From: an uncultured bacterium | GTDB lineage: Bacteria > Cyanobacteriota > Vampirovibrionia > Gastranaerophilales > Gastranaerophilaceae | DNA: 64,000 bases | NCBI GenBank assembly: GCA_902792085.1 | Contig: CADAYE010000012.1 | Span: 1 to 64,000 of the forward strand | Reading direction: 5' to 3' | In this document: positions 4,322 through 33,284 of the stretch, piece after piece | How the letters are laid out: each line of letters begins with the position of its first letter | Position numbering within the stretch: the stretch's first letter is position 1 | Notes under the pieces: generated by a model | Database searches by the model: none | The model's input: only the letters and a program-made list of their open reading frames with translations | Told to the model about the DNA's origin: nothing | Made by a program: the position numbers and the translations under genes

Positions 4322-4350
4322 AGTTTAACAAAATGCAAAATAAGTGTCAA
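4322..4350 (-). promoter_or_regulatory. Promoter of tRNA-Thr
   Basis: On the minus strand TTGACA (4350-4345) and TAAACT (4327-4322) are separated by 17 nt, with the tRNA 5' end 15 nt further on. Confidence 0.75.
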
Positions 4351-4352
4351 AT

Positions 4353-4380
4353 AAAAAGGCAGACATCTGTCCGCCTTTTT
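4353..4380 (-). terminator. Rho-independent terminator of the first Gly-rich gene
   Basis: A hairpin of GGCGGACAGATGTCTGCC flanked by A and T runs, about 35 nt past the stop of the gene at 4417. A sister copy lies at 5156-5183, and the similarity extends beyond the hairpin into the flanking ttagatatgtatcttg. Confidence 0.85.
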
Positions 4381-4416
4381 AGATATGTATCTTGTTTCAG
4401 GCAATTGTTTGGCACA

Positions 4417-5061
4417 CTAACTATCTGAATCTGTGTTTGCCTTTTCTTGTTTATCAAAACACTTGTTGTCTGCGTCCCATGTGTATTCATTGCCATCTGC
4501 ATCTTTCCACTTACCATCATCACTTTTTGTTAATGGTGGTTTGTGAGTTTTTGCCTTTGCTTCAGGAGTATCCGCTGTTTCAGTGGTCGTTACATCAGCA
4601 AGTTCGCTTAACTGTGTTTTTACATCATCATATTTACCGTTAGCAACAATTTTTCCATCCTTTGCTGCCGTATAAGTGCCATCTTTTTCTTGGCGTATTA
4701 CATAACCCTTTCCGCCAAAAAAGGCATTCAAGTTGTCTAAATCAGGGTTCTTTTGTTCACTTGTGCCTTGGGAAGTAGTCGCAACTTGGGCAGTATTCAA
4801 ATACGCATAAGCATTGTTATTCCAACCTAAGAAATTATTCAAACCATACATGCTACCACCAAGTCCAAACCTGCCACAACCGAACAGACTTTCATTTAAA
4901 CCGGTCATAAAGCCCCAAAATCCTGATGGGCCATTTTTTATATTAATATTTTCAGTAATGCTTACATTTCCGCCTCGCGGCATCATAAAACCGCCGCTTC
5001 GAAAACGAAAATGCTGAGGTATAAATTGATCATGTGCTCTGAAAAAATTAAAATAAGACAT
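4417..5061 (-). CDS. Gly-rich orphan protein with GPSGFWGFMTGL motif
   Basis: A 214-aa protein of unknown function. Residues about 30-80 carry an aromatic/Gly-rich segment (ITENINIKNGPSGFWGFMTGL, then FGCGRFGLGGSMYGL). Then come a QKNPDLDNLNAFF segment, a short YVIRQEKDGTYTAAKDG unit, a Thr-rich linker, and a repeat-like DGKWKDADGNEYTWD unit near the C-terminus. There is no classical signal peptide. It has a paralogue immediately upstream (5230-6275), with the C-terminal DNA far more alike than the N-terminal. A TACTTTATAT box (about 5092-5102) lies 28 nt before the start, and the SD is GGAG. It may be a structural or surface protein, but this is a guess. Confidence 0.7.
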   Translation of the reverse strand: MSYFNFFRAHDQFIPQHFRFRSGGFMMPRGGNVSITENINIKNGPSGFWGFMTGLNESLFGCGRFGLGGSMYGLNNFLGWNNNAYAYLNTAQVATTSQGTSEQKNPDLDNLNAFFGGKGYVIRQEKDGTYTAAKDGKIVANGKYDDVKTQLSELADVTTTETADTPEAKAKTHKPPLTKSDDGKWKDADGNEYTWDADNKCFDKQEKANTDSDS

Positions 5062-5091
5062 TGTTCTCTCTCCATATTACTTCTTTGTATA

Positions 5092-5102
5092 TATAAAGTA
5101 TT
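5092..5102 (-). promoter_or_regulatory. TACTTTATATA box upstream of Gly-rich gene 1
   Basis: Minus-strand TACTTTATATA ends 28 nt before the ATG at 5061. Equivalent boxes lie at similar distances before four other orphan genes in this window (5230-6275, 8833, 20324-20788, 59258-59641), so it may be a shared -10-like or regulatory element. Confidence 0.5.
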
Positions 5103-5155
5103 TTTATTATGTCTTATTTCAATAATGGAAAATTTTGTAATATTTGTTTACAAAT

Positions 5156-5183
5156 AAAAAGGCAGACTTATGTCTGCCTTTTT
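5156..5183 (-). terminator. Rho-independent terminator of the frameshifted Gly-rich gene
   Basis: GGCAGACTTATGTCTGCC hairpin with flanking A/T runs, about 47 nt past the stop at 5230. It is a near-copy of the terminator at 4353-4380. Confidence 0.85.
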
Positions 5184-5229
5184 AGATATGTATCTTGTGT
5201 CAGACAATTGCCTAACCACTGACTTTTAT

Positions 5230-6275
5230 TTAAATTGTATATTGGTCTGCTAAGCCTGCACTTTCTAATTGTGCTCGTAAATTATCCGCAAGTATTTCCT
5301 TAAAACGAGCCTCAGTTGTACCAACTATTGCATGCCAACCGTTTTGCTCTGCCTTAAATGAATGGAATTTACCTTTACTATCTGTAAACTGAATTACTGC
5401 TTCGCCTGAGAAACCTATTGTACCGCCAATAGGTGAAGTCTTTTTCCTAATATTCCACTTGATTGGAAGTTTTGTTATATGTTGATTATTTGTACTTGTG
5501 ACTGGTGAACCAGCACTATTTCCTTGTGCTCTTGTAGGCCTACGCCTTGATGTCGGTGTAGTGGTATTGTTAGTTGTAGTGGTATTGTTAGTTGTAGTGG
5601 TATTGTCAGTCGTCGTTGTTGGCGTGTCGTCTGCTGGTGTTGTTGGGTCCGCAGGTGTTTCAACTTTATCAAAACACTTGTTGTCTGCGTCCCATGTGTA
5701 TTCATTGCCATTTGTATCTTTCCACTTGCCATCATCATCCTTTGTTAATGGTGGTTTGTGAGTTTTTGCCTTTGCTTCCGGAGTGTCTGCGGATTCATCA
5801 GTTGTTGTTGCATCTGCAAGTTCGCTTAACTGTGTTTTTACATCATCATATTTACCGCTGCAACAATTTTTCCATCCTTTGCTGCCGTATAAGTGCCATC
5901 TTTTTCTTGGCGTATTACATAACCTTTTGAACCAAAAAAGGCATTCAAATTATCTAAATCCGGATTCTTTTGGTCGCCTGTACCTTGCGAAACTGCTGTC
6001 TGATGGGAATTTAGCAAACCGAAAATTCCGCCGCCCATGCCTAATCCGCCACCAAGTCCAAACATACCGCCGCCAAACAGACCTTGACTTAATCCGGTCA
6101 TAAAGCCCCAAAATCCTGACGGGCCATTTTGAATATTAACATTTTCGGTGTAAGAATAGTTTCCGCCGCCAAACATACCAATCTGTGGCATTGGTCTGTG
6201 ATAACAATTTGTTCTCAACGGACCGTTTGGCATAAATCTTAAATTAAAGGCTCTGCCCAAACCATATAAACTCAT
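5230..6275 (-). pseudogene. Frameshifted Gly-rich paralogue with Thr/Asn linker and extra C-terminal domain
   Basis: This reads in frame from ATG 6275 (SD GAGGAG 8 nt upstream; the ATG at 6281 is too close to the SD) to about 5860, where it falls out of frame. The paralogue has GTTGCTAACGGT and this copy GTTGCAGCGGT, one base shorter. With the base restored, the frame stays open to a TAA at 5230, about 349 aa. Domains are an aromatic/Gly-rich N-terminus with GPSGFWGFMTGL, the YVIRQEKDGTYTAAKDG unit, the DGKWKDTNGNEYTWD unit, a Thr/Asn linker from three 18-bp repeats, and an about 90-aa C-terminal domain absent from the neighbour. As written only a short product (about 145 aa) is made. There is no homopolymer at the site, so a simple sequencing slip is not obvious. 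Confidence 0.75.
5558..5611 (-). repeat. Three 18-bp tandem repeats encoding a Thr/Asn linker
   Basis: The unit gtagtggtattgttagtt (+ strand) occurs at 5558-5575, 5576-5593 and, with a change at its end, 5594-5611. In the restored frame it encodes NTTTTN-type units. The 18-bp period preserves frame, so copy number may vary between strains. Confidence 0.8.
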
Positions 6276-6390
6276 AAGCATGTCTCCTCTTGTATTTACT
6301 TTCGATTAAATATATAAAGTATATAAAGAGTATATAATTGCTTATATAATGAAAATTGTTTACAATTTGTTACAATAACTAAACATTAAG

Positions 6391-6546
6391 TTTAGGCAAT
6401 TATATATTATTTATCACTAAATTTTGGCAAAACGGATATCCCTAACGGGGAATCACCCACCCAAATTTCTAAATTTCACATTCTGTTCAATTTGAAATTT
6501 CTCCCTCCCTCACGAGGTGTGGTAACTCCTTTATAGTTACCTAATT
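6391..6546. mobile_element. MITE-like element, internal type A, overlapping the mrnC stop
   Basis: Terminal inverted repeats: left TTTAGGCAATTATATATTAT and right, read inward on the minus strand, TTAGGTAACTATAAAGG. The interior (ccctaacggggaatcacc and following) is almost identical to 32990-33040. There is no coding capacity. The right terminal repeat supplies the final AGG TAA codons of mrnC. Confidence 0.65.
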
Positions 6547-6896
6547 TTATTTGAGACAAAAGATAAAATAAAGTCATATCTTGGCTTATCGTTTAAATAC
6601 CACCAGCCGATTAGGGCTTCAAATGCTGTTGCCTGTCTGTACTCATGCTGAATATTTTTTCTGCCGACAGGGATGGGCAAATTTCTTGCTCTTTTAGCAA
6701 GTTCAAGTTCTTCGTCTGTTAAATTCGGCTCTATGTAATGCAATAACTCACATTGGAACTGCGTTTTGACCATTGAAGTTGTTAATTGATGCAACTTTTT
6801 TGCGTTATTGGTCATAAGAATTGTCTTTTCACGGATAAACAATTCCCACACAGCATCGCCTAAATACGCATAATTTCTTAAATTAATTTCCTGCAT
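6537..6896 (-). CDS. mrnC: Mini-ribonuclease III (23S rRNA maturation)
   Basis: A 119-aa protein consisting of an RNase III catalytic domain without a double-stranded RNA-binding domain. YLGDAVWEL (residues about 11-19) and EYRQATAFEALIGWWYL (about 85-101) are the family's metal-binding signatures. In Bacillus this enzyme trims 23S rRNA precursor ends. The C-terminus ends KIR-stop, with the AGG TAA codons lying inside the terminal repeat of a MITE, so the original 3' end may have been altered. Confidence 0.88.
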   Translation of the reverse strand: MQEINLRNYAYLGDAVWELFIREKTILMTNNAKKLHQLTTSMVKTQFQCELLHYIEPNLTDEELELAKRARNLPIPVGRKNIQHEYRQATAFEALIGWWYLNDKPRYDFILSFVSNKIR

Positions 6897-6966
6897 ATAT
6901 GAATTTTACTACAAAATAGCCTGTTGTAGTATTTAACAAGTAAAAAATTTATGAGAAGTTATTTTA

Positions 6967-7254
6967 ATGAGATATTTTTTTATTATTTTAATTTTGTTTA
7001 GTCAAATATATATCAAAGCAATTGCGGATGTAGAAAATATTGATTTTACCCCTTTATATTATAATGTATTAGACCTGAATAAAGAGCAAATTTCGCAATT
7101 TGATAATGGAAACGAGAATATATTGGATAAAAGACAAAAAGCACAGTATCGAATCTTAAAACATCTTGAAAAACACGAAAAAAAACAAAAATCGAAAGAT
7201 TATTACAAATCAAACCCGAGAATGAGTGTTTTTGGAGATTTAAAAAAGAAATAG
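6967..7254 (+). CDS. Small secreted or anchored hypothetical protein
   Basis: A 95-aa protein with an N-terminal hydrophobic stretch (residues about 3-20, FFIILILFSQIYIKAIA) likely to be a signal peptide. It is followed by a charged, lysine-rich helical region (KHLEKHEKKQKSKDYY). The family is not recognised. It stands alone, divergent from mrnC and 126 nt before miaB. Nothing indicates its function. Confidence 0.55.
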   Translation: MRYFFIILILFSQIYIKAIADVENIDFTPLYYNVLDLNKEQISQFDNGNENILDKRQKAQYRILKHLEKHEKKQKSKDYYKSNPRMSVFGDLKKK

Positions 7255-7380
7255 GGCTATGTTTATAGTAAAATGAAATTGAGTACAAACCCTCACCAGC
7301 ATTTGTACGGCTCATACTTCTCCCTGCAACTGCTCCCTTTCACAAAGGTAGAGGGGGAAGAAGTCTAAAAAAGGAAGATT

Positions 7381-8706
7381 ATGAAAAAAGTTTATATAGA
7401 AACAATGGGATGCCAAATGAATAAGTCTGATACAGAACGCATGCTCGGCATGTTATACAATTTTGGCTATGAAGAAACAACAGAACCCAAACAAGCAGAT
7501 TTATTGATGGTAAATACCTGTTCAATAAGACAGTTAAGCGAAGATAAAGCATACAGTTTAATCGGTTTGTGGGGGAAATGGAAAAAGAAAAGACCTGAAT
7601 TGAAAATCGGATTTTGCGGATGTGTTGCACAACAAAAGGCACAACAGATATTCAAACGAGCACACTATGTAGATTTTGTACTCGGCACACACAAAATTTA
7701 TTCGTTACCAAATATAATAAAAAAAATAGAACAGGGTGAAAAAGTTTGTGAATGTGAAGAAACACATTCAACTGAGGATAATGAAGCTGTAAAATATAAT
7801 ATTAATCGTGTAAAATCTGTTAATGCATGGATACCTATAACTGAAGGCTGTAACAATTTCTGCACATATTGTATCGTTCCGTACACAAGGGGGCGCGAGC
7901 GTTCAAGACTACCCGAAACAATATTGAAAGAAGTCAAGGATGCACTAAGCTCAGGGTTTAAAGAAATTACTTTATTGGGGCAAAATGTTGACAGTTACGG
8001 TAAGGATTTTAAAGACAGGAATTACAGACTTGCGGATTTACTGCGTGAAGTAAACTCAATAGAGGGTCAATTCAGAATCCGCTTTGTAACATCTTACCCG
8101 ACAGATATCACAGATGAACTTATACAGACAACACTTGAACTTGATAAAGTTTGTGAATACTTCCATATTCCCATGCAGTCAGGTGACAGTACGGTTTTGA
8201 AAGCAATGAACAGACGCTATGACAGAGAAAAATACTTTGAGATAGCAAACAAAATAAGAAAAATGGTTCCTGATGTAACAATCACAAGCGATTTTATAGC
8301 AGGTTTTCCGGGAGAAACGGAAGAACAATTTCAAAACACCCTTTCTGCAATGGAAGAACTCTGCCTTGATTATTCAAATACCGCTGCCTATTCTCCAAGA
8401 GAAAAAACTGTTGCGGCAAAATGGACTGATAAATTTATTGATGAGGAGACAAAATTTGAGCGACTTGAAAGACTAAACGAACAAAACCGCAAGTGCTGTC
8501 TTGCTTCAAACAAAAAATTTGTCGGGCGAACAATGGAAGTCCTGATAGAAAATTTTGAAGAACACAAGGGCAAAAAAGTTATTTCAGGCAGGACAAGAAA
8601 CAACAAAATTGTTCATATCCCATGCGAAAAAGATTTAACAGGGGAATTTATTAATGTAAAAATTATCGGCTGCAAAACTTGGTACCTGAATGGTGAAATC
8701 GTATAG
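7381..8706 (+). CDS. miaB: tRNA-2-methylthio-N6-dimethylallyladenosine synthase
   Basis: A 441-aa radical SAM methylthiotransferase that adds the 2-methylthio group to i6A37 of tRNAs reading UNN codons. The N-terminal MTTase domain holds the auxiliary-cluster cysteines C11 (GCQMNKSD), C47 (NTCSIR) and C81 (CGCVAQ). The radical SAM motif CNNFCTYC has C157, C161 and C164. A C-terminal TRAM domain (about 380-441) binds tRNA. The length is normal. An AAGG-type SD precedes the ATG. The 126 nt upstream contain a fragment resembling the 'ctccctccctc' repeat interior. Confidence 0.95.
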   Translation: MKKVYIETMGCQMNKSDTERMLGMLYNFGYEETTEPKQADLLMVNTCSIRQLSEDKAYSLIGLWGKWKKKRPELKIGFCGCVAQQKAQQIFKRAHYVDFVLGTHKIYSLPNIIKKIEQGEKVCECEETHSTEDNEAVKYNINRVKSVNAWIPITEGCNNFCTYCIVPYTRGRERSRLPETILKEVKDALSSGFKEITLLGQNVDSYGKDFKDRNYRLADLLREVNSIEGQFRIRFVTSYPTDITDELIQTTLELDKVCEYFHIPMQSGDSTVLKAMNRRYDREKYFEIANKIRKMVPDVTITSDFIAGFPGETEEQFQNTLSAMEELCLDYSNTAAYSPREKTVAAKWTDKFIDEETKFERLERLNEQNRKCCLASNKKFVGRTMEVLIENFEEHKGKKVISGRTRNNKIVHIPCEKDLTGEFINVKIIGCKTWYLNGEIV

Positions 8707-8794
8707 CCTTTATTTTTAATGCTTTTGCTCTAATATATTAAGAAATGTAAACTTAATTTTAACAAAAAAGGCAATTATTTTAAAAATATATACT

Positions 8795-8805
8795 TTATAT
8801 CTATG
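8795..8805 (+). promoter_or_regulatory. TACTTTATAT box upstream of the 78-aa gene
   Basis: TATATACTTTATATC lies about 31 nt before the ATG at 8833. It matches the boxes upstream of four other orphan genes. Confidence 0.5.
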
Positions 8806-8832
8806 TAAGAGATAAGAGAGAGATTAAGCATT

Positions 8833-9069
8833 ATGGCTACAGGACAATTCGGAACAATTATTAAACCATCAGCACACAGAAAAGGTGCAGTTAAGGAATT
8901 TCAATATTTGCAGCATAAAGACAGAAGAATGAGATTCAACAATGCTCAGGATCCGATTTATTACATCTTCGATTGTATCGAAAATCGTCCTGTAAGCAAG
9001 TTGGCAAAAGAATTTGTTGAAGATGCTATATTTGATACAATGAATTTTATTTCAAAAATGGTTGGATAA
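8833..9069 (+). CDS. Small basic hypothetical protein
   Basis: A 78-aa soluble protein, rich in basic residues in its first half (HRKGAVKEFQYLQHKDRRMRF) and helical in its second. There is no signal peptide. The family is not recognised. It is monocistronic, with a strong terminator at 9126-9148 and the TACTTTATAT box upstream, so it is probably well expressed under its own control. A nucleic-acid-binding or structural role is possible but unsupported. Confidence 0.6.
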   Translation: MATGQFGTIIKPSAHRKGAVKEFQYLQHKDRRMRFNNAQDPIYYIFDCIENRPVSKLAKEFVEDAIFDTMNFISKMVG

Positions 9070-9125
9070 TCATAAGGAAAAAGAGAAAAGAAAAAGTTTG
9101 GAAAAGGATAGGAAAAACATTAAAC

Positions 9126-9148
9126 AAGCGGTCAAAAGACCGCTTTTT
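9126..9148 (+). terminator. Rho-independent terminator
   Basis: AAGCGGTC-AAAA-GACCGCTTTTT hairpin plus T-run, 56 nt after the stop at 9069. Confidence 0.9.
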
Positions 9149-9169
9149 ATTTTACATAAACTATATTAG

Positions 9170-9320
9170 TTTAGGTAACTATATACAATGTTACAGTAAA
9201 TATGTCTGACATTGCGAGGAGGAAATGGCTTTCCGACGAAGCAATCCAGTTATTTCATCATTATCGACAAATTAAACGGCTGGATTGCCACGCCCTAACG
9301 GGCAGTTAAATTACCTTAGT
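9170..9320. mobile_element. MITE-like element, internal type B, overlapping the GNAT stop
   Basis: The left end TTTAGGTAACTATATACAAT is identical to that of the element at 10904. The interior has 'gacattgcgaggag' and 'cggctggattgccacgccc' arms. The right end read inward (CTAAGGTAATTTAA) supplies the AGG TAA end of the acetyltransferase gene. There is no coding capacity. Confidence 0.65.
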
Positions 9321-9799
9321 TTATATTCCATAATATAATCATCCATCACAAAACCGTTACCAATATCAGTTACTACAGCGTTTACAATCTCAAATCCCCA
9401 TTTTTTATAAGCATTTATACTTCTTTCGTTACTTTTATTTACTGTTAACAGAATTTTATTATATTTCTGTATTCTTGCACATTCTTTTATAAATGCGAAA
9501 GTTTTTGTGCCAATGCCCTGATGTCGAACTTCTTTTTTTAGGTAGAATTTTGATAAAAATAAATAATCATCTTTATTGGAAAGCCCTATATATCCAACCA
9601 TTTGACGATTTAAATAAATATAATAATATGTATAGTTTTCGTTTTGAATTTGGTTTTCTATCGCATCTCTTGACTGAAATTTTTCAATCATATAGTCAAT
9701 TTGGGCATCAGACAAGTATTCTTTCCAATATTCATGCCAAATTTGAGATGACAATGTAACAAGTTTATCAATATTAACGGCTTTTTCATATTTAATCAT
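9311..9799 (-). CDS. GNAT-family N-acetyltransferase
   Basis: A 162-aa acetyl-CoA-dependent acetyltransferase. The GNAT core is visible: VGYIGLSNKDDYLFLSKFYLKKEVRHQGIGTK (motif A with RHQGIGTK binding the CoA pyrophosphate), then NERSINAYKKWGFE (motif B). The substrate is unknown. It overlaps nadK by 8 nt and is therefore co-transcribed with it. The C-terminal KLR-stop comes from a MITE terminal repeat. Confidence 0.85.
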   Translation of the reverse strand: MIKYEKAVNIDKLVTLSSQIWHEYWKEYLSDAQIDYMIEKFQSRDAIENQIQNENYTYYYIYLNRQMVGYIGLSNKDDYLFLSKFYLKKEVRHQGIGTKTFAFIKECARIQKYNKILLTVNKSNERSINAYKKWGFEIVNAVVTDIGNGFVMDDYIMEYKLR

Positions 9800-10589
9800 T
9801 TAATAACTCCTTAGATGGCTTAATCCCCCAATGAAGTTTGTTCCGCAAAACAGAATAAAAATCATTCCCGCTTAACAGTACAAGTTTTGCGCTAAATTCA
9901 GATTTATTTATCAAAATATCATCATTGGAATTAAATACTTCCTGCCCGTCAGCGCTTATGCAATATTTTTGACCTTTTATTTTTATTTTTGATGATGAAG
10001 GCACAACAATAGGCCTTGCGCTAAATGTATGAGGACAAATAGGAACAATCTCTAATACCTCAGAATCAGGCGACAAAACAGGTCCGCCAGATGCCATACC
10101 ATAGGCAGTCGAACCGGTCGGAGTAGATACAATAAGCCCGTCAGCAAAATATTCACAAACAAATTTGTCATCTATTTCAAGAGAAAAATTTGTAGCACGA
10201 GAAGATTCAACCCCTTTTATAACAAAATCGTTTAATGCAGTATAGGCACCACATTCAAGCATTGTGCGGGTTTCAATTTTATAATCTTCTTTCATAATTT
10301 TTTCAAGTGCATTTCCCAAATCTTGAACCGAAGCCTGAGAAAGAAACCCCAAATGCCCGAGATTTATACCAAACACAGGGACATTAAGTTTTGAATAAAA
10401 CCTTGCCGTTTTTAAAATTGTACCGTCTCCGCCTATTACAAAAACAAAATCGCAATCAGATTGCAAATCCTCCACACTAAAAACATTATATTTTGCATTG
10501 TAAAGATTGAGCAAATTTTTTAAAGTTTCAATTATACTTAAATAACCTGATATTTCAGAATTATAACAAATACCATAATAATTTTTCAT
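9792..10589 (-). CDS. nadK: NAD kinase
   Basis: A 265-aa ATP-NAD kinase that makes NADP. GGDGT (residues 53-57) is the catalytic/ATP-binding motif, followed by FGINLGHLGFLSQ. The central STPTGSTAYGMASGGPVLSP segment forms the NAD-binding site. The length is typical. It is the first gene of a two-gene operon with the GNAT. Confidence 0.93.
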   Translation of the reverse strand: MKNYYGICYNSEISGYLSIIETLKNLLNLYNAKYNVFSVEDLQSDCDFVFVIGGDGTILKTARFYSKLNVPVFGINLGHLGFLSQASVQDLGNALEKIMKEDYKIETRTMLECGAYTALNDFVIKGVESSRATNFSLEIDDKFVCEYFADGLIVSTPTGSTAYGMASGGPVLSPDSEVLEIVPICPHTFSARPIVVPSSSKIKIKGQKYCISADGQEVFNSNDDILINKSEFSAKLVLLSGNDFYSVLRNKLHWGIKPSKELLND

Positions 10590-10636
10590 ACATTCAGTTT
10601 ATACCAAATACACAAAAAAAGTAATAAAATAATAAA

Positions 10637-10912
10637 ATGAGCGAAAAATTCTATGTATATATGCTTTTGACACAAGACAATACCCTATATTGCGGATACA
10701 CTGACAATGTTGAAAAACGCTTTGAACTTCACAAGTCCGGAAAAGGAGCAAAATATACAAGAGCGCATAAACCGTTGAAAATTGTTTATACTAAGGAATA
10801 TTCCTCAAAATCCGAAGCGCAAAAAGAAGAATACCGAATTAAACATAACTTAACCAGAAAAGAAAAATTGCAACTAATTTCTGCGTCAACCGCTAATAAA
10901 AATTTTAGGTAA
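10637..10912 (+). CDS. GIY-YIG domain protein (UPF0213/YhbQ-like)
   Basis: A 91-aa single-domain GIY-YIG nuclease. FYVYMLLTQDNTLYCGYTDN holds the GIY...YIG-equivalent segment (YVYML and YCGYT). Then come an arginine (KRFELHKSGKGAKYTRAHKP) and the conserved glutamate in SKSEAQKEEYRIK. Short proteins of this family are linked to DNA repair or structure-specific cleavage; their role is poorly known. The last codons AGG TAA belong to a MITE end. Confidence 0.87.
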   Translation: MSEKFYVYMLLTQDNTLYCGYTDNVEKRFELHKSGKGAKYTRAHKPLKIVYTKEYSSKSEAQKEEYRIKHNLTRKEKLQLISASTANKNFR

Positions 10913-11075
10913 CTATATACAATGTTACAGTAAATATGTTTGTCATTGCAAGGAGTTGACAAAGTCAACGACGCGCGACAATCCATAATACATACAACAG
11001 CCAAACACAAACGGCTGGATTGCTTCACTTCGTTCGCAATGACATGTGACTGTACAATAGTATATAATTACTAAA
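10904..11075. mobile_element. MITE-like element, internal type B, overlapping the GIY-YIG stop
   Basis: About 26-bp terminal inverted repeats: TTTAGGTAACTATATACAAT on the left and TTTAGTAATTATATACTATT read inward from the right, each followed by a TTACAG/GTACAG box. The interior arms (gtcattgcaagg, then ttcgttcgcaatgac) can pair. There is no ORF. The left repeat gives the GIY-YIG gene its FR-stop ending. The remainder of 11076-11254 holds a hairpin at 11167-11193 and nothing else recognised. Confidence 0.7.
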
Positions 11076-11166
11076 TTTTATATAAAAAGAGGGGGGATAC
11101 ACTAACTCCATTTTTGATAAAAATATTTTAACTCAAGGCTTTGCCGAAAGTTATAAATCTGAGAAA

Positions 11167-32100: not shown

Positions 32101-32740
32101 CATTCAAATACCATTACCGCCACTTGATATTCAGCAAAAAATTGTTGATGAAATTGAAAAAGTTGAAAAAGAAAAGTCAATTAGTTTAGACAATATAAAT
32201 AGACTTAAAAGTAATATTAAATCTACACTAAACTCAAAGCAAACAAAAAAATACAGGATTGGTCAGTTAATAACACTAGAATATGGTAAAGCATTACCTA
32301 AATCAAAAAGAATAGAAGGAAATTATCCTGTCGTCGGTTCAAATGGAATAGATGGTTACCATGATGAATATATGCTAAAGGCACCAAATATTATTATTGG
32401 AAGAAAGGGTTCCGTCGGTAAAGTTAATTGGATAGAGAAAAATTGTACACCTATAGACACTTGCTTTTATGTAAAAGCTAATAGCAATATTATTGATTTC
32501 AAATATTGCTATTATATGTTGAAAAATGCAAACTTAGAAAATTTAAATACAGGTTTAGGACCTGGAGGATTAAATCGTAATACCGCTTATAATGTAGAAG
32601 TTAACATTCCAGATTTAAAAGAACAACAAAAAATTGTTTCACAAATTGAAGAACTTGAAAAACAAATTGCGGAAGCGCAAAAGGTAATCGACAATTCAAA
32701 ACAGCAAAAACAAGCAATTTTAGATAAATATTTAAAATAA
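29105..32740 (+). CDS. Single-chain restriction-modification-specificity enzyme (type IIG-like)
   Basis: A 1211-aa fusion, numbered from TTG 29105 (AAGGG 8 nt upstream; the TTG at 29075 lies before the expected transcript start). An N-terminal HsdR_N-like PD-(D/E)xK nuclease has D100 in SGRLD and E115/K117 in LIECKTYG. An HsdM-like N6-adenine methyltransferase has GQFFTP near 400, SAM-binding AAGSGH at 441-446 and catalytic NPPY at 556-559. Two HsdS-type target-recognition domains (about 875-1030 and 1048-1190) are each followed by a coiled-coil spacer. No helicase motor is present, unlike type I enzymes. Both activities and specificity in one chain should give a self-contained system. The last codon is 1 nt from a MITE. 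Confidence 0.88.
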   Translation: MDYKIILSQMGFKPKDGALNTYKKDYKQHDYSIEVDFSKEKICYGDLIGADCKTTQNFSQAENWVVLECVNRLLEKGYKPQNIILEKTWPAGHGTSGRLDICVNRDDGSEYLLIECKTYGKEFDKAVSKLNKDGGQLFTYFKFSNKADILMLYASELQGDKLIYRNEIVKIEDDYRAGNVKDFYDKWNKLTKDNGIFETWVKPYCFESKALTIDDLKKITQEDSSFIFNRFLEILRHNVVSDKGNAFNKIFTLFLCKVYDETTKIEGDGQELDFQWKEGIDNDVDFQLRLTDLYKKGMEVFLSRIVSDFNENDFQKRCNDLNDETKKYLLYEVNKLRLEKNNEFAFKEVYDHDSFVENAKIVKEVVELLQGYRIRYNKRQQYLSDFFELLLTTGLKQEAGQFFTPVPIAQFIIKSLPLERIVDEKLKQQNGEILPYMIDYAAGSGHFITEYMHEVQNIIEKKSPAKYIASTRNNIQYWQTAKYEWATNYVYGIEKDYRLVKVGKVGCYLHGDGLANVILSDGLGNFVNTKDYKGKLHKDNDDNSKDNQQFDIILSNPPYSVSAFRQTTRDYYTNKDFDLYDKLTDNSSEIECLFVERTKQLLKDGGVAGIILPSSILTNTGIYTKTRELLLKYFEIVGITELGSNTFMATGTNTVVLFLRRRNNYECINLEKSVDKFFSNHTDVTINAIETPVAKYVNYVWEGLSFEDYLTLLDQNPNDKVKNHDLFKEYSNKIKTDKDFWKKVLELEKEKIYYFILCYPQRLVIVKTGEKEAEKQFLGYEFSNRRGAEGIHAIQRNKSIDECTKLFDINSFDNPQKASTYIHKAFENDFNFAIDETLKDNVSRVDLLDMMTFDRTDFEKNINLNSKKKVKIESKFELYNLGELVENLDNKRIPLSKNERISGEIPYYGATGIIDYVSEYIFNEKLVLIGEDGAKWGANENSAFSIKGKTWVNNHAHVLRPKRNKILDTYLIEILNKYDLSSYITGQNVPKLNQANLNSIQIPLPPLDIQQKIVDEIEKVEKEKSISLDNINRLKSNIKSTLNSKQTKKYRIGQLITLEYGKALPKSKRIEGNYPVVGSNGIDGYHDEYMLKAPNIIIGRKGSVGKVNWIEKNCTPIDTCFYVKANSNIIDFKYCYYMLKNANLENLNTGLGPGGLNRNTAYNVEVNIPDLKEQQKIVSQIEELEKQIAEAQKVIDNSKQQKQAILDKYLK

Positions 32741-32741
32741 T

Positions 32742-32942
32742 TTTAGGCAATAATATATTATTTTACAGTAGAATGTCATTGCGATACAAAGCGAACAGGC
32801 GAAATAATAATGAGCCTTGTGAGCCTGTATGTGTCGGCGAAGCCGTTAACTGCCCGATAGGGCGTGGCAATCCAGCCTTTTATTTTATTCATTCGAATTA
32901 CTCCATCGATTTTTACTGTAACATTGTACATAAATCCCTAAT
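32742..32942. mobile_element. MITE-like element, internal type B, abutting the R-M gene
   Basis: Left end TTTTAGGCAATAATATATTA and right end, read inward, TTAGGGATTTATGTACAATG then TTACAG. The interior holds tgtcattgcgatac and gggcgtggcaatccagcc arms shared with 9170-9320. It begins 1-2 nt after the R-M stop codon. It contains no plausible gene. Confidence 0.65.
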
Positions 32943-32946
32943 TTTA

Positions 32947-33284
32947 ATTAAGGCAATTATATATTATTTACCACAAAATTTTGGCAAAATGGTTATCCCT
33001 AACGGGGAATCACCCACCCAAATTTCTAAATTTCACATTCTGTTATTTTTGTGGTAATTCCTATATAGAATGCAGGGTGCGTTTATACATTTGAAATTTC
33101 TCCCTCCCTCACAAGGGAGGGTTGGGGTGGGTGCTGATTTTAACCTATTTTTGTGGTAATTCCTATATAGAATGCAAGGTGCGTTTATACATTTGAAATT
33201 TCTCCCTCCCTCACGAGGGAGGGTTGGGGTGGGTGCTGATTTTAACTTATTTTTGTGGTAACTCCTATATAGTTACCTTAATTG
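32947..33284. mobile_element. MITE-like element, internal type A, with internal duplication
   Basis: Left end ATTAAGGCAATTATATATTA and right end, read inward, ATTAAGGTAACTATATAGGA, both leading into a TTACCAC box. The interior matches 6410-6500 and then carries two near-identical tandem units of about 104 bp (about 33046-33149 and 33150-33253) with the palindrome ctccctccctcac/gagggaggg. With the neighbouring element it fills the 635-nt gap, which otherwise holds only the promoter at 33327-33355. Confidence 0.65.

Follow-up and report, generated by a model that had tools for sequence, protein, structure and literature searches.

An IS1595-type MITE family in a rumen Gastranaerophilales genome and its copies at gene stop codons

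MITE copies and gene ends in the window

The DNA analysed here (the window) is a 64,000-nt stretch of contig CADAYE010000012.1 from a rumen Gastranaerophilales genome of 1.92 Mb in 39 contigs (G000). Three short inverted-repeat elements (MITEs) in the window form the ends of an mrnC gene, a GNAT gene and a GIY-YIG gene, and a fourth and a fifth follow an R-M gene. The end pattern of the elements has 13 matches in the window at up to three mismatches, against 3.35 expected. The copies, with their flanking target duplications, and the three gene ends are as follows.

6395..6541, minus strand: MITE copy, subfamily B, 147 bp; duplications TAAGTTTA (6387-6394) and TAATTTTA (6542-6549), 7/8 matching
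6537..6542, minus strand: AGG TAA end of mrnC (TAA 6537-6539); A from the host duplication, GG TAA from the element
9174..9315, minus strand: MITE copy, subfamily A, 142 bp; perfect duplications TTAGTTTA (9166-9173 and 9316-9323)
9311..9316, minus strand: AGG TAA end of the GNAT gene (TAA 9311-9313); the empty site of a relative ends in KLI*
10908..11072, plus strand: MITE copy, subfamily A, 165 bp; perfect duplications AAATTTTA (10900-10907 and 11073-11080)
10907..10912, plus strand: AGG TAA end of the GIY-YIG gene (TAA 10910-10912)
32746..32938, plus strand: fourth MITE copy, subfamily A, 193 bp; perfect duplications TAATTTTA (32738-32745 and 32939-32946)
32952..33277, plus strand: fifth MITE copy, subfamily B, 326 bp; duplications TTAATTAA and TTAATTGA, 7/8 matching

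Both element ends begin GGYAAYTATATA. The original prediction, made from the window alone, gave the repeat as TTAGGTAACTATATA, which is wrong: the element starts at GG and the preceding TTA is the end of the 8-bp duplication. With this boundary the A of AGG is a host base and GGTAA belongs to the element, so that of the three AGG TAA ends placed inside the terminal repeat only the GG and the TAA lie within it. The GNAT-facing end of copy 9174..9315 is degenerate (GGTAATTTAACT, 8/12 to the consensus) and not a perfect repeat. The fourth element had been placed 1-2 nt past the R-M gene stop; the two are five bases apart (stop 32738-32740, element from 32746), and the stop TAA, with which the first duplication opens, is retained. 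The fifth copy landed at the far edge of the fourth and contains an internal tandem duplication of about 102 bp. Elsewhere in the window, positions 4348-6149 hold two diverged tandem copies (blocks about 85-93% identical, spacing about 1.2 kb), apparently duplicated minus-strand genes that share terminator-like repeats.

The same three genes are present in the relatives G004 and G002, and all three sites are empty in G004, the closest relative. MrnC ends in SNKIR* in G000 and in SNKINVK* in G004; the GNAT protein ends in YKLR* and YKLI*, respectively. The GIY-YIG protein ends in KNFR* at the filled site and in KNFK* in G004, and KNFI* is predicted for the reconstructed empty site. The original prediction turned on whether orthologues lacking the element keep the same C-terminal residues, and in G004 all three have other residues. 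Since the empty sites end differently, the Arg and the stop were made by insertion of the element, with one to three C-terminal residues exchanged for one in each gene.

Other copies affect stops in different ways. The G000 copy at C19:36256 supplies a stop that changes the original TAA to TAG and leaves the protein unchanged, and the copy at C18:29126 supplies a stop and replaces the last Ile by MVTI. One copy in a relative (G025, L274) is in the R-stop reading frame by its reconstructed position, the original stop lying five bases beyond the insertion. The C8:14128 copy, which has imperfect duplications, is read through in frame and adds about 80 C-terminal residues (62 element-encoded) to this gene:

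L134:1374-3065 (G000:C8:12676-14367): gene read through the MITE

The R-stop is one of three reading frames at most ends. With one host base before the element an immediate stop follows at 48/50 type A ends and 26/50 type B ends; with two host bases the counts are 14/50 and 33/50, and with none an immediate stop never follows. The element is thus a frequent, not a universal, stop supplier. It was concluded that stop supply is real but incidental.

The family and its putative mobiliser

Copies in G000 were collected with their flanks, ends were paired on the basis of the two inverted ends together with the target duplication, and 53 complete copies were found genome-wide. The target duplication is 8 bp, perfect in 39/53 copies and matching at 7/8 positions or better in 47/53. 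Among the perfect duplications 33/39 are all-A/T, compared with 4.8% of background 8-mers, and the symmetrised target consensus is WWAWWTWW. The copies are short (median about 160 bp), bounded by terminal inverted repeats and without a transposase gene, as MITEs are, and they show the A/T-rich 8-bp duplication expected of an IS1595-mobilised MITE. Two core types can be distinguished, subfamily A and subfamily B with 25 copies each (two further copies are mixed and one is unclassified). Both types fold much more stably than shuffled sequences, with z scores averaging about -5.4 and -6.1. The copies constitute a new and well resolved IS1595-type family of non-autonomous transposons (MITEs), and the first proposal, a mobile MITE family, is supported. 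The end pattern has 107 matches in the genome at up to two mismatches, and a reversed control pattern has 23. Some matches are false: at G000:C22:978-8924 a coding sequence repeats a unit of about 36 residues many times over (DFIGNYI...GGA motif, minus strand), and its codons happen to resemble the MITE end.

Pairing of ends at longer range revealed a partner element, and two other larger elements are listed with it.

G000:C7:84124-89005 (L129:3004-7885): partner element, 4882 bp, perfect duplication TATAATAA
G000:C7:156071-157366 (L131:3001-4296): 1296-bp element, perfect duplication TAAATTAA
G030, L248:2484-3657: 1174-bp element, same ends, perfect duplication; its only gene is DUF3800 (PADLOC PDC-M04A)

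The partner encodes an IS1595-family transposase (L129:6568-7686; PF12762, E=7e-45; NF033547, E=7e-61; both above cutoff), in which the zinc ribbon PF12760 gives a match under its cutoff. Its right end is identical to subfamily B at 25/26 bases; for subfamily A the likeness to the partner is limited to the outermost 12 bp and to GTTAC further in. The transposase has no close homologue among 58 relatives of the same genus; the best matches, at 38-43% identity, come from three genomes, and the one at 43% is disrupted. End matches number 75 in G000 and at most 20 in any other genome. The unique transposase and the largest end-match count in one genome agree with a recent burst driven by this transposase. 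The MITEs are probably mobilised in trans by the C7:84124-89005 transposase.

Besides the transposase, the partner has genes for a Fic protein (PADLOC model SoFic) and a Schlafen-AlbA protein, and a short integrase-like ORF. The SoFic-like Fic and Schlafen-AlbA genes may be defence cargo on the MITE mobiliser. In the 1296-bp element the duplication holds the stops of both convergent neighbours, and its 331-aa passenger ORF matched no family in Pfam, NCBIfam or PADLOC. The DUF3800 protein was considered as a transposase and rejected: no such ends surround its homologues in G018 and G056 (that of G018 lies at a contig end), and DUF3800 is therefore regarded as a passenger. A non-coding stretch beside the DUF3800 gene looks conserved beside the G018 and G056 homologues and may be a structured RNA. 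Rfam gave no match to this stretch; a scan of the G030 DUF3800 locus together with the window yielded a tRNA and SRP RNA and nothing else.

Insertion sites around stop codons

Gene positions were calls from a home-made model, and copies in relatives were sampled by an end pattern that includes flanking bases. Expected numbers were computed over tolerated sites (non-coding positions or the last 15 bases of a gene) within 3 kb, weighted by target sequence. Coding sequence holds 72% of the target weight over all target-matched sites. No copy with perfect duplications interrupts a gene interior; one sits 10 bases inside a predicted start, and the coding insertions seen are only at gene edges. Convergent gaps received 23/61 insertions and make up 13% of intergenic bases. 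Between -12 and +8 of a stop there are 25/54 insertions versus 11.6 expected (p about 1e-5); when the two large G000 elements are counted as well and the fit takes in flanking A/T, the figures are 26/55 versus 14.1 (p=0.0002). The only bin in excess is that in which the duplication overlaps or abuts the stop (19 versus 9.8 expected), and target weights trained on far-from-stop insertions alone lower the expectation to 8.1-8.7. The bin just upstream of the stop, where R-stops originate, is not enriched (4 versus 3.1). Distance to the nearest stop, the check proposed originally, thus gives about a 2-fold enrichment beyond target composition and coding avoidance. Enrichment for the supply of R-stops, which had been suggested, is not supported, because upstream insertions occur at the expected rate. 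The excess lies at existing stops, which are retained.

We consider it likely that mobilisation of MITEs in trans, followed by differential survival, accounts for the pattern as a whole. Insertion duplicates 8 bp of near-pure A/T (WWAWWTWW). Most target-matched sites are genic and insertions there would almost all be lost, so that survivors lie between genes, above all in convergent gaps and at stops. A copy that lands close to the 3' end of a gene with one base of a codon in front of it gives xGG TAA, since the element starts GGTAA. This reads Arg-stop if the last base of the duplication is A, and a single residue then replaces one to three at the C-terminus, probably at little cost. Two comparisons bear on age. 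Duplications are perfect in 13/19 near-stop copies and in 26/28 of the others, and the near-stop share is 10/12 in relatives without a close transposase and 21/49 in G000 (p=0.02). The excess is thus stronger among older survivors, which points to selection, although the copies behind this dating are few and the clock is indirect. The stop excess is probably a product of survival and not of target choice. The original prediction had offered gene-end targeting or selection for a terminal sequence that replaces a stop harmlessly; the stop excess stands, the age data lean to selective survival, and targeting is not needed.

The numbers behind survival are modest, so targeting keeps some probability. 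The excess of 19 versus 8-10 is not fully explained by composition, and a real stop preference could exist. According to such a reading the transposase, or a DNA state at gene ends (convergent stops of the form TAAnnTTA, terminator melting or transcription collisions), steers insertion to stops. The excess at stops persists even with the far-from-stop weights (19/49 versus 8.1-9.8), some duplications cover both stops of a convergent gene pair (as TAAATTAA does at C7:156071), and stop adjacency also holds for the G030 DUF3800 element and for the two larger elements of G000 whose duplications are perfect. However, the target motif does not differ between sites near stops and sites far from them, the placement of TAA/TTA in the far sites matches expectation (10 versus 11.0), and the near-stop share is higher in the very genomes that lack a cognate transposase. 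An IS1595 relative also entered genes freely in E. coli: for ISEc69, which makes 8-bp AT-rich duplications, 23/23 mapped insertions were in genes (PMC7835479). We regard stop-directed transposition as unlikely, and the same holds for the DNA states proposed to guide it. Equally doubtful is its fuller form, in which TAAnnTTA palindromes in particular would provide the IS1595 transposase with a built-in safe site and the element ends would replace the stop if insertion fell early.

Gene-end copies might instead be retained for their hairpins, as transcription terminators or as protection for the mRNA. Their folding stability agrees with this, and their concentration downstream of genes resembles that of pneumococcal SPRITE repeats (PMC3049150); however, such folding follows from the inverted repeats of any MITE, the GNAT copy precedes an apparent native hairpin terminator of the GNAT gene, and numerous copies are found at a distance from any stop or in gaps between divergent genes. 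The elements may act as 3' mRNA structures, but we judge this improbable as the cause of the pattern. Chance, with AT-rich sequence producing the three R-stops of this window by coincidence, is scarcely credible: the elements and their duplications are real and the empty sites in the relative prove the insertion origin of the stops, which refutes chance for the elements, and it is a fair account only of why three R-stops cluster in this window, given truncating insertions near expectation (4 versus 3.1) and an R-stop frame of 1 in 3.

Survival of MITEs mobilised in trans leaves a clear example, as it stands, of selection and A/T targets shaping C-termini, and a measured case of short elements piling up on stop codons. 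With copies, empty sites, an autonomous partner and passengers, the MITE system is complete and recent, and it comes from a gut lineage that has been little studied. If aiming were the cause, safe-site targeting of a new kind would be at hand, and the old question of why MITEs gather at gene ends would become directly testable.

Comparison with known systems

A literature search found no report of stop-directed MITEs, and stop adjacency is not reported in the portions of the IS1595-family papers covered here (PMC7835479, PMC12561309). These papers describe 8-bp A/T-rich duplications for ISEc69 and the ISApl4/IS1016 group, and the present family shares with them this duplication and the DDE transposase domain. 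It differs in its host order, Gastranaerophilales, in its large lineage-specific MITE expansion and in a 4.9-kb partner with Fic and Schlafen-AlbA genes.

MITEs altering gene 3' ends have already been described (PMC2759123, PMC5896051). The Correia/NEMIS, RUP and ERIC/RU-1 elements are likewise short, TIR-bounded, structured and mostly intergenic, and some of their copies are fused to gene 3' ends or alter the stop (PMC2229807, PMC2759123). They have TA termini and other ends, whereas the elements described here have an 8-bp duplication and GGTAA ends. Pneumococcal RUP, BOX and SPRITE repeats are over-represented between convergent genes, which was attributed to weak selection there (PMC3049150); here target-matched controls narrow the excess down to the stop codon. 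In Coxiella, QMITE2 inserted at the 3' end of enhC alters the C-terminus and the stop (PMC5896051). That is one case of extension, whereas the present family provides several terminal-repeat replacements and one read-through extension.
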